Shown here piece after piece: positions 7,983 to 10,473 of a DNA stretch of 64,000 nucleotides; the first letter of the stretch is position 1, and every line of letters starts with the position of its first letter. The position numbers and the translations under genes are program-made. Origin of the DNA: Streptomyces sp. NBC_01233 (lineage in GTDB: Bacteria; Actinomycetota; Actinomycetes; Streptomycetales; Streptomycetaceae); the NCBI RefSeq assembly GCF_035989305.1, contig NZ_CP108514.1, positions 4,937,501-5,001,500 on the forward strand, read 5' to 3'. The notes beneath the pieces were generated by a model. It was not told the origin of the DNA. It saw only the letters and a list, made by a program, of their open reading frames with translations, and did no database searches.

Positions 7983-8721
7983 TCAGGTGCTCGCTGGCCT
8001 ATTCGCGTCCGAGCTGGTGGAGAGACGAAGGATCTTGTCCCAGGTGACCACTAGCCCCGCCGCGGCGGCCGTGGCCAGGGCGACGCCCACAGCTGACGAA
8101 GCCAGGGCAAAGACGATGCCGGCGAGACACAAGGTGAACGCAGATCCCCGCAGCACCTGCTGCCGCCATGCTCTGCGCTCGCGGTGACTGTGCAACAGCC
8201 CGTCGGCGGATACGTCCCCAGGTGCGAGATCTTGCAGCCGGCCGCTGGCGAGCACTTTCAGGATTCGCTCCACTTCGAGCAGAGCACGCTTCGCACCGTC
8301 GATCCGATCAAGCTCAACCCCGTCCCGGAGTTCACGCACGAGGGCAGCGGCTGCTGCGAACCGAGCCACGACCTGGGGCATGGGGTTACGGCCATCAGGA
8401 AGCGCACGTTGCACGGCATACCTCTCCAGCGCGATGGCGAAGTCTTCCAACGCTTGCACTGCCGCAACGTGCGGAGAGTTGAAGGGCGATGCCGTCGGAG
8501 GCTCCTTCCCCGTTACCTCCAGAGGCTGGAGAAGTGCCTCATAGGCCCTACGCACCGTGACCGTCATGGCCTCGGTTGTCCACCGTTGCATGCCTTGGTT
8601 CGCGACAAGCGAGGCGATCACAGCAGTGATCAACATGGGCGTCACCAAGACCCCCATGGCGACGGCGTCGCGCCAGACGTGCCAGCTTGTGTGTTGGATG
8701 GCTGCGGCAAGGGCGCCACCT
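7983..8721 (-). pseudogene. 3' part of a membrane-protein gene split by IS110
   Basis: This part encodes a hydrophobic segment (GVLVTPMLITAVIASLVA), a long helical region, and a second hydrophobic hairpin near the C-terminus (FTLCLAGIVFALASSAVGVA). The frame runs into the IS110 end. Joining it to 10164-10473 at the shared CT dinucleotide restores one frame of 349 codons reading ...MSVSGGALAAAIQHTSW.... The intact protein would have had an N-terminal anchor and at least three further hydrophobic segments. No family is recognised. Confidence 0.75.
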
Positions 8722-8734
8722 CCTAATGAGGTTG

Positions 8735-9925
8735 TCAAGCGGCAGCAGGAGCGGAGAGTCCATGCTCGTAGCACCGTCCGTCACGGATCAAGGCCCAGAG
8801 GACGTTGACCCGTCGCCTCGCCAACGCGAGGACGGCCTGGGTGTGCCGTTTGCCTTCGCCGCGCTTGCGTTCGTAGAAGCGCCGCGACGCGTCGCAGTTG
8901 CGGATGCTGATGAGCGCGGAGGTGTAGAAGACGCGTTGCAGGCCGCGGTGGTAACGCCGGGGCCGGTGCAGGTTGCCGCTGACGTTGCCGGAATCGCGTG
9001 GGACCGGAGCGACCCCGGCCAGGCTGGCCAGACGGCCGGAGTCTGCGTAGCGGCTCATGTCGCCGCCCGTGGCGGCCAGGAACTCGGCACCCAGCAAGGG
9101 GCCGATGCCGGGCATGCTCTCGATCACTTCGGCCAGGTCGTGTTCGCGAAACCGGGCCGCAATGAGCTTGTCGATCTCGGCGATCTGCTCATTGAGGCTC
9201 ATCACCTCCTTCGCCAGGGTGTGGATCACCTGCGAGGCGATCTTCTCCCCGGGGACGGCGGTGGCCTGGCGCTCGGCAGCCTCCAGAGCGGCTGCGGCAA
9301 GGGTTTCGGGGCTGCGGACCTTGCGATTGCGCAGCCAGGTCTCCAGCCGTTTGCGGCCGACGCGCCGCAGGGCAGCCGGGGTCTGGTAGCCGGTCAGCAG
9401 GATCAGCGGGCCGACGTTGCCCAGATCAAGGACGCGTTCCAATGCCGGGAAGATGGTGTTGAGTTGACCACGCAGACGGTTGATCCGGCGGGTGCGGTCG
9501 GCGTTCAGGTCGGCTCGCCGGTTGGTGAGTATCTTCAGCTCGATGGTGAGTTCGTCTTCCGACCGCAGGACAGCCAGGTCCCTGCGCATTCGGGCCTGGT
9601 CGGCGATAACGGTGGCGTCCTTGGCGTCGGTCTTGCCCATGCCCCGGTAGCCGGCGGACGCACGGTTGACCGCGAGGCCCGGAATGTAGACGAGCCGCTG
9701 GCCGTGGTTGAGCAGCACGCTGATCCACAAAGCGGCCGTGCTGTCGGCGACATCGACGGCCCAGACCACGTCTTCGTCCAGAGCCAGGACGTCCCCGAGG
9801 AGAGAGAGAAGCTCCGGCTCGTCGTTCAGCACGCGCCGCGACAGCAGTCGCTCGCCTTCGGCGTTCAGGACCACGCAATGGTGGTGGCTCTTGCCGATGT
9901 CCGTTCCTGCCCAGATCCGGGCCAC
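8735..9925 (-). CDS. IS110-family transposase (DEDD/RuvC-like plus C-terminal Ser domain)
   Basis: The 396-aa protein has the DEDD RuvC-like domain first: Asp9 in AGTDIGK, Asp58 in AVDVADS at the position of the usual Glu, and Asp100/Asp103 in GKTDAKDA. A helical coiled-coil stretch follows at about 200-265, then the Tnp domain with MPGIGPLLGAEFLAATGG and Ser312 in PRDSGN, the expected catalytic serine. These recombinases act with a bridge RNA that pairs to donor and target DNA. ATG at 9925 is preceded by GGAGGAACCC. Length and motifs are complete, so the gene looks functional. A long open frame on the opposite strand is a shadow. Confidence 0.95.
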   Translation of the reverse strand: MARIWAGTDIGKSHHHCVVLNAEGERLLSRRVLNDEPELLSLLGDVLALDEDVVWAVDVADSTAALWISVLLNHGQRLVYIPGLAVNRASAGYRGMGKTDAKDATVIADQARMRRDLAVLRSEDELTIELKILTNRRADLNADRTRRINRLRGQLNTIFPALERVLDLGNVGPLILLTGYQTPAALRRVGRKRLETWLRNRKVRSPETLAAAALEAAERQATAVPGEKIASQVIHTLAKEVMSLNEQIAEIDKLIAARFREHDLAEVIESMPGIGPLLGAEFLAATGGDMSRYADSGRLASLAGVAPVPRDSGNVSGNLHRPRRYHRGLQRVFYTSALISIRNCDASRRFYERKRGEGKRHTQAVLALARRRVNVLWALIRDGRCYEHGLSAPAAA

Positions 9926-9959
9926 GGGTTCCTCCGGTCGCTCGATGTGCGCTTATGGT

Positions 9960-10110
9960 CCGGACGACCTCGCCAGCGTGGTCCTACTGAGCGATGCCCC
10001 GCAGGGCTCGCAGCTCCTAATCAGCGGCCGAGTCGTCGTGAGACGCCGGGCGGCCAGGTGGCGGTAACCATCGAGTGCAACCCGCTGAAAGCCATACCCG
10101 GCGTCTCTGG
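9960..10110 (-). ncRNA. Candidate bridge (seek) RNA of the IS110 element
   Basis: Read on the minus strand, a 10-bp stem AGACGCCGGG/CCCGGCGTCT (10106-10097 with 10050-10041) closes a 46-nt loop. In it, CGCCACCU (10063-10056) is complementary to the right target with its core, and UUUCAG (10090-10085) pairs with the left target CTGAGA with one U-G wobble. A second imperfect stem (10037-10026 with 9974-9963) closes another loop. This holds AUUAGGAG (10021-10014), identical to the element end plus core, and GUAGGACCaCGCU (9987-9975), complementary to the other element end with one bulged A. The order matches target-binding and donor-binding loops of known bridge RNAs. RNA ends are not determined. 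Confidence 0.8.
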
Positions 10111-10163
10111 ATCTCTGGACCTTACGACTGGCCCGTCCAACCCGCACAACAACGTAGGACCCG

Positions 10164-10473
10164 CTGAGACGGACATGGCGACGGGGACGACCATCTTGAG
10201 GGCGAGTGCCCTCCGGGACGCCTGATACAGGACGTCTTCGCGCTGCAAGTAGTCCAGCGTCGGACGGTCTGGACGCGTCGCCAAGGAGCTGTCGCGAACC
10301 TGGCGCACTAGGTGAGCGCGGCGCCGTCTCGCGTGTGCCCGCGCGTGAGCCCAGCAGATCCGTTCCAGGAGCGTTCTGCTACGTCGGCGCTGCGACGTTG
10401 CCGTCATGGTCAGGGCCCATATCGACATTGTCCAAGCGGCGAAGATGAGCGCCCCAAACTCGGCTTTCGACAC
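10164..10473 (-). pseudogene. 5' part of the membrane-protein gene split by IS110
   Basis: A GTG start at 10473 has GGAGGGGGAGG just upstream. The N-terminus MSKAEFGALIFAAWTMSIWA is a likely signal anchor, followed by a basic Arg/His-rich stretch (AHARAHARRRR) and a second hydrophobic run (MVVPVAMSVS) that breaks off at the IS110 end. The frame continues at 7983-8721 after removal of the element. The displaced tail inside the IS is meaningless. Confidence 0.75.

Follow-up and report, generated by a model that had tools for sequence, protein, structure and literature searches.

The window analysed here, a stretch of 64,000 nt from Streptomyces sp. NBC_01233 (contig NZ_CP108514.1, positions 4,937,501 to 5,001,500), contains on the minus strand from 8720 to 10160 an intact insertion sequence of the IS110 group with a single gene (8735–9925, 396 aa), lying within a host gene for a hypothetical protein. 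The genome of 10.3 Mb has five full copies of the element, printed as 100% identical, and 46 related loci turned up elsewhere when one genome per species was scanned, mostly in Streptomyces and Kitasatospora, some of them fragments. The left end of ~235 nt holds a predicted bridge RNA and the right end is 15 nt from ORF to core, an arrangement of the IS110 rather than the IS1111 group. An earlier, sequence-only reading had already recognised an IS110 element, as is borne out by the Pfam matches below, and re-reading agrees with its 396-aa ORF and 240-nt leader. The main features, from the left end, are:

10161–10473, minus strand: 5' part of the interrupted host gene (hypothetical protein), from sequence reading and homologous proteins
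8720–10160, minus strand: IS110-group element, 1,441 bp with one core copy counted, left end at the high coordinate; from the empty sites L085–L088 and the five copies in this genome
10151–10156, minus strand: TACGTT, putative -10 box of the circle-junction promoter, sharing 3 of 6 bases with TATAAT; TTGACA stands at a spacing of 17 bp in each of 17 distinct junctions from a set selected by pattern
9960–10143, minus strand: predicted bridge RNA, ~184 nt, its probable ends placed by promoter position and family structure
10109–10143, minus strand: 5' stem-loop of the bridge RNA, made up of helices 1 and 2; the two pairs that show two-sided changes belong to helix 2
10040–10107, minus strand: target-binding loop with an 11-bp closing stem, in which 94.8% of cells pair and two-sided changes affect 4 of 11 pairs
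9963–10037, minus strand: donor-binding loop; 98.1% of cells paired in helix 5, 1 of 9 pairs with a two-sided change
8735–9925, minus strand: 396-aa IS110 recombinase, DEDD/RuvC domain (PF01548, 2.1e-47) and Transposase_20 domain (PF02371, 1.6e-19)
8733–8738, minus strand: putative -35 box TTGACA in the right end, from the alignment of leaders and ends and the circle-junction reconstruction
7983–8719, minus strand: 3' part of the host gene, right core copy included, from homologous loci and proteins

The boundaries of the element are given by its empty sites. The 3' part of the host gene was matched in six of 392 genus genomes, the present one included, and five homologous loci were examined; L085 to L088 are uninterrupted and align without a gap against removal of 1,441 bp (35–40 bases shown on each side of the junction), and L089 falls short of the junction. 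The closest of them, L085, reads GTCTCAGCGGG|TGGTGCC. Homologous host proteins are likewise gap-free at the junction in 19 of the 19 aligned (28 found). As empty sites and aligned proteins are both gap-free there, the insert measures 1,441 bp, and its two junctions have GGT in common. The earlier reading had set it at 1,444 bp, a junction 3 bp shorter than these uninterrupted homologues, and it would turn SVSAGGALA, as read in the intact protein P0001, into SVSGGALA with the loss of one residue. It had itself named a host homologue unlike the removal of 1,444 bp at CT as the finding that would tell against it; empty sites and proteins are of just this kind, and they refute its boundary, not the bridge RNA mechanism. 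Its remark that removal restores the host reading frame stands, but 1,444 bp keeps the frame no better than 1,441 bp since the two proposals differ by 3 bp. The first four bases that it counted as element (AGCG) differ among relatives in the leader alignment, where ATGC, AGGT, AAGC, AGTC and others are found, and the variants are for the most part matched by the same change in loop 1 of the leader. As these bases co-vary with the guide they are target and not element, and with the empty sites this moves both of the boundaries first proposed.

Other copies add little on this point. The flanks of L005 and L001 have distant homologues only (66–79% identity in the empty-site search): at the L005 junction, L092 is gap-free right at the junction with gaps nearby and L091 has a 3-base gap, and of the three homologues for L001 L095 alone reaches across the junction and is gapped on either side of it. 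Being distant and gapped near the junctions, they decide nothing on the boundary. The flank of L002 had no match outside its own genome, where it is found in two places, among the 392 genomes searched.

Within these boundaries the leader carries four predicted guides, the left target and left donor guides directed to the bottom strand and the right target and right donor guides to the top strand, together with a handshake guide. Guides and sites are:

10161–10167, minus strand: left target TCAGCGG, host DNA that the earlier reading had counted partly as element; from the empty site L085 and the agreement with left target guides across the family
10159–10160, minus strand: core GT, left copy, within the GGT of both junctions; from the copies in this genome, guide matches and the empty site
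10154–10158, minus strand: right donor CCTAC, matching the right donor guide, with the same letters in most aligned leader rows
10080–10088, minus strand: left target guide UCAGCGG with core GU, identical to 10159–10167
10058–10063, minus strand: right target guide CGCC with core AC, complement of the right target, pairing with GT-GGCG
10056–10057, minus strand: handshake guide CU, complementary to donor positions 6–7 (AG)
10014–10021, minus strand: left donor guide AUUAGGAG, identical to the right element end at 8720–8727
9980–9987, minus strand: right donor guide GUAGG with core AC and C, complement of GGTCCTAC at 10154–10161; GUAGG-AC (9981–9987) pairs with GT-CCTAC
8720–8726, minus strand: left donor TTAGGAG, matching the left donor guide
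8718–8719, minus strand: core GT, right copy; from the copies in this genome and guide matches
8714–8717, minus strand: right target GGCG, matching the right target guide

The choice of the four guide-bearing segments and of their strands goes back to the sequence-only reading and is supported here. The strings that it quoted, AGGTGGCG at 10056–10063, CTGAAA at 10085–10090, CTCCTAAT at 10014–10021 with its identity to 8720–8727, and AGCGTGGTCCTAC at 9975–9987, are all present on re-reading. The left target guide is not TTTCAG but TCAGCGG with GT, and the perfect match is one of nine nucleotides, TCAGCGGGT, found at 10080–10088 and 10159–10167 and so crossing the supposed end of the element. 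The right donor guide had been given an extra base because the match was extended into target bases; with the corrected core the bulge disappears, 9980–9987 matching 10154–10161 with no extra base. The AG on to which the loop 1 guide was said to run is indeed there, but by position it is a handshake guide CU of the published type. The left donor guide is mismatched at core position 8, the first base of the core (CU against GT).

The agreement between guides and flanks can be examined in the other copies, a check that the earlier reading had suggested. All five copies in this genome sit at TCAGCGG-GT-GGYG. L002 and L004 share 100 identical bp of left flank, followed by ~75% identity to 550 bp, and have different right flanks, so that the five insertions may not all be independent; both apparently lie upstream of similar short genes, which would suit either two paralogous targets with conversion or a rearrangement. 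The same genome has perfect unoccupied 13-mer sites (TCAGCGGGTGGYG), four of which are listed (G000:C1 160826, 1016628, 2319743 and 10026762) and could serve to follow new insertions. If one mismatch is tolerated, the genome has 151 places for the 13-mer and 128 for its reversed control, and near-matches to the target are thus common.

Across the family the comparison covers 37 of 51 loci (5 from this genome and 46 related), namely those that carry the guide anchor. The 14 without it are L010, L034–L040, L046–L050 and L053, the Rhodococcus and Saccharothrix loci among them; L010 was missed through one anchor base, and the leader alignment shows that it fits (TCATGCGG). The left flank is absent at contig edges in three of the 37 (L021–L023). 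For the 34 loci with a full left flank, guide and flank agree at 7 of 7 positions in 25, at 6 in five, at 5 in two, and at 4 and 2 in one each. On the right, 4 of 4 positions agree in 15 of 32 loci, 3 in 12, 2 in four and none in one. Among 17 distinct left pairs (32 rows; L043 and L052 are outside this permutation and inside the 34-locus counts) there are 105 identities of 119, where shuffled pairs average 66 and never exceed 92, and among 21 distinct right pairs (32 rows) 73 of 105, where they average 40 and never exceed 59; each was reached in 0 of 20,000 shuffles, which do not preserve relatedness. With one row per guide the left total is 87 (13 rows; shuffled maximum 81) and the right total 61 (18 rows; 52).

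The agreement has sharp limits on the left, being found in 26, 25, 26, 26, 25, 23 and 24 of 27 distinct rows at positions 1 to 7, of which position 7 adjoins the GT core; past position 1 it drops to 6, 4 and 7 of 27. It is less sharp on the right, with 20, 17, 12 and 17 of 22 at positions 10 to 13, 10 of 22 at position 14 and 4 of 22 beyond. Poor fits are L015 (left 2/7), L026 (left 5/7), L027 (right 0/5) and L031 (right 2/5). L052 scored 4/7 on the left at another site chosen by the script; the leader alignment shows TCGTAGG at its junction. In the window itself, 5,000 dinucleotide shuffles of the 225-nt leader gave the 9-mer of the left target guide in 0.1%, the 7-mer of the right target guide in 4.3%, and the 8-mers of the left and right donor guides in 0.14 and 0.54%. 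All four corrected strings together were found in 0 of 5,000, the strings being fixed beforehand, yet picked because they match.

The earlier proposal that the leader encodes a bridge RNA, with the target loop followed by the donor loop, is supported for the predicted RNA by the family alignment. In 23 leaders the family structure of 5' stem-loop, target loop and donor loop has 97.0% of its cells paired. Two-sided changes are found in 23 cells, against a shuffled mean of 5.3 and a number reached by 0 of 500 shuffles, and versions of the structure slid along the alignment are lower on each measure, an advantage favoured by the fact that the structure was drawn from the consensus and the window. 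Further pair types in the same leaders do not stand out: there are 19, the shuffles give 18.1, and 173 of 500 shuffles have as many. Most of the support comes from the target-loop stem, and the donor-loop stem varies little. The loop 1 stem, perfect as first described, is 11 and not 10 bp long (10097–10107 with 10040–10050). Folding of the leader, as the earlier reading had advised, places this stem in the minimum-energy fold (z -2.7 and -3.0) but not the closing stem of loop 2, which is absent from the single-sequence fold and rests on the family alignment. A scan of the whole window with Rfam at the gathering score gave 0 matches; as the coverage of bridge RNAs in Rfam 15 is uncertain, we make this no defining feature.

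In the predicted circle, right-end TTGACA and left-end TACGTT or TACCTT are spaced by 17 bp, and 17 of 17 distinct junctions agree in this. Their set (29 loci, of 47 tried) was chosen by a pattern with CTTGACA and a -10 region, so that only the spacing counts as independent. The leader alignment, which was not chosen by pattern, has CTTGACA in the right ends shown except that of L031, where the end is misplaced.

The recombinase has an N-terminal DEDD/RuvC and a C-terminal Transposase_20 domain, both above the Pfam cut-off, and the only solved structures that it matches are the transposases of ISCro4 (PDB 9t56, the best match, E 1.6e-13) and IS621 (E 4.6e-11, mainly in the C-terminal domain; 396 aa against a PDB chain of 328 residues). 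In this strong C-terminal stretch S312 aligns with the nucleophilic S241 of IS621, assuming a 2-residue offset of the PDB chain. D100 and D103 (KTDAKD) stand opposite D102 and D105 of IS621 in a stretch that scores poorly by itself (i-Evalue 25 for IS621 and 4.1 for ISCro4), and both are invariant among 14 aligned sequences. D58, by eye the likely counterpart of IS621 E60, the second acidic residue of the DEDD set, is an aspartate and likewise invariant in the 14.

The element is thus very probably an active or recently active IS110-group insertion sequence guided by its own bridge RNA. Excision would yield a circle in which the right-end TTGACA comes to lie 17 bp from the left-end TACGTT, forming a promoter that would transcribe a bridge RNA of ~184 nt. 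Loop 1 of this RNA, with UCAGCGG-GU and CGCC-AC as left and right target guides, would select the target TCAGCGG-GT-GGYG, and loop 2, with AUUAGGAG and GUAGG-AC as left and right donor guides, the donor TTAGGAG-GT-CCTAC. The DEDD/serine recombinase would then swap strands at the GT core, leaving the 1,441-bp insert with a copy of the core at both ends.

As GGT is found at both junctions, the window alone cannot separate GG, GT and GGT as the core, and the case for GT comes from the relatives. In L031 and L032 the ends have just GC in common, where GT would stand, and in both loci the left target, right target and right donor guides and both ends have all changed together, the donor AA being paired with a handshake guide UU; these GC-core loci may be a variant. 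With GT as core the left arm would be 7 and the right arm 4–5 positions, as in IS621. A core of GG, with all else as in the scheme above, would suit L041 and L044, whose right flanks start with GGC, a poor fit to a strict GT core, and share GG alone with their own left ends. Given L031, L032 and the 7-nt left arm, we consider it unlikely.

The version of the sequence-only reading, in which all four guides set the core at CT on the plus strand (AG on the minus strand) of a 1,444-bp element starting AGCGGGTCC, with UUUCAG as left target guide with one wobble and a bulged right donor guide, had in its favour that AG is present at both of its ends, that CTCCTAAT is exact and that the frame survives removal. 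It needs an empty site GTCTCAGGTGGCG, and the observed empty sites are 3 bp longer; its AGCG bases vary among relatives following the guide, and the left agreement between guide and flank ends at position 1. An AG/CT core, a bulged right donor guide and a left guide UUUCAG are rejected on empty sites and relatives, which place the core at GT within the shared GGT, and so little credence is left that this is the least probable of the readings weighed here. Hardly more probable is an agreement between guides and flanks that arose without any RNA guide, as a by-product of element ends duplicated from the flank. The leader is DNA of the same element, and shared ancestry could yield such a similarity. 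Against this, the copies in this genome, with one leader, lie at separate loci with little in common beyond the bases matched by the guide, the right-arm matches are reverse-complementary, as RNA pairing requires, and the stem of the target loop has compensatory changes. A GT core and an RNA guide remain the preferred explanation.

Among the relatives, Streptomyces sp. NBC_01549 has five copies with the left guide CCAAGCG, four of which sit in frame between KR and WI codons: L012, L014 and L016 inside IS5-type transposase genes (DUF4096 and DDE_Tnp_1), and L013 inside an acyl-CoA dehydrogenase gene. The fifth, L015, fits on the right side only. With copies placed between the KR and WI codons of IS5-type transposases, one guide at the least is directed to a conserved motif in a competing transposase. 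L008, L009, L010 and L030 have a similar site in common, and the flank of L010 matches DDE_Tnp_4 weakly, at 24.7 bits just under the cut-off of 24.8.

L026 (2740–2775) and L015 (2745–2770), both poor left fits, have the left-donor sequence ATTAGGAG at or next to the left junction, an 8-mer with two other occurrences in the 75.6 kb of left flanks; in L026 the whole donor site can be read there, and no TTGACA stands immediately upstream. Donor–donor recombination or a tandem remnant is possibly the cause. L018 has a short tandem duplication in its left end (2740–2775), and at L029 a second, inverted relative (769–2260, ~67% identical) directly adjoins the element, left ends facing.

It is an even question whether this actinobacterial clade of IS110 elements forms, more widely, a library of bridge RNAs re-aimed in nature. 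Many target guides would be carried on similar backbones, two related loci would have passed from a GT to a GC core through joint changes of three guide strands, the handshake guide and both ends of the DNA, and one guide would be aimed at the codons of the KR-WIVER motif of IS5-type transposases, with other transposases as landing pads. The natural pairs of guide and target on a shared backbone, with GT and GC cores, would be useful to test the tolerance of IS110 recombinases for core and arm length in GC-rich actinomycetes. Here a bridge RNA could be read from one genome and was then corrected by relatives, which is also a caution for the reading of raw sequence: four short matches agreeing on one core were convincing, yet a few bases off at each end.

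No title dealing with this element came up in the literature searched, whose scope took in neither ISfinder nor most subscription journals. Bridge RNAs are reported to be general in IS110 elements and have been predicted in 85.7% of the IS110 group, according to PMC11208160. The closest likeness is to IS621 of E. coli, whose layout, with the core at positions 8–9 and a tolerance for GT, is set out in PMC11208158 and PMC11208160, the latter also reporting a junction promoter of this type. As far as these accounts go, both elements have in the left end a (here predicted) bridge RNA with 5' stem-loop, target loop and donor loop, a left arm of 7, the core at positions 8–9, a short right arm and the same position of the handshake guide, as well as a junction promoter (putative here), a PF01548 domain and the aligned serine. 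They differ in their guides and in the core, which is CT in IS621 and GT here, or GC in two related loci. The ISCro4 transposase, the best solved-structure match yet a distant one, is likened by protein alone. ISEc21 and the seekRNA elements of the IS1111 group, described in PMC11187229, resemble the present one in that an RNA from a non-coding region selects the target, as predicted here, and the same paper reports natural redirection of guides for ISEc11 and ISXne4. Unlike IS1111 elements, with long subterminal repeats and a long right end, the element of this window has its predicted RNA in the left end.
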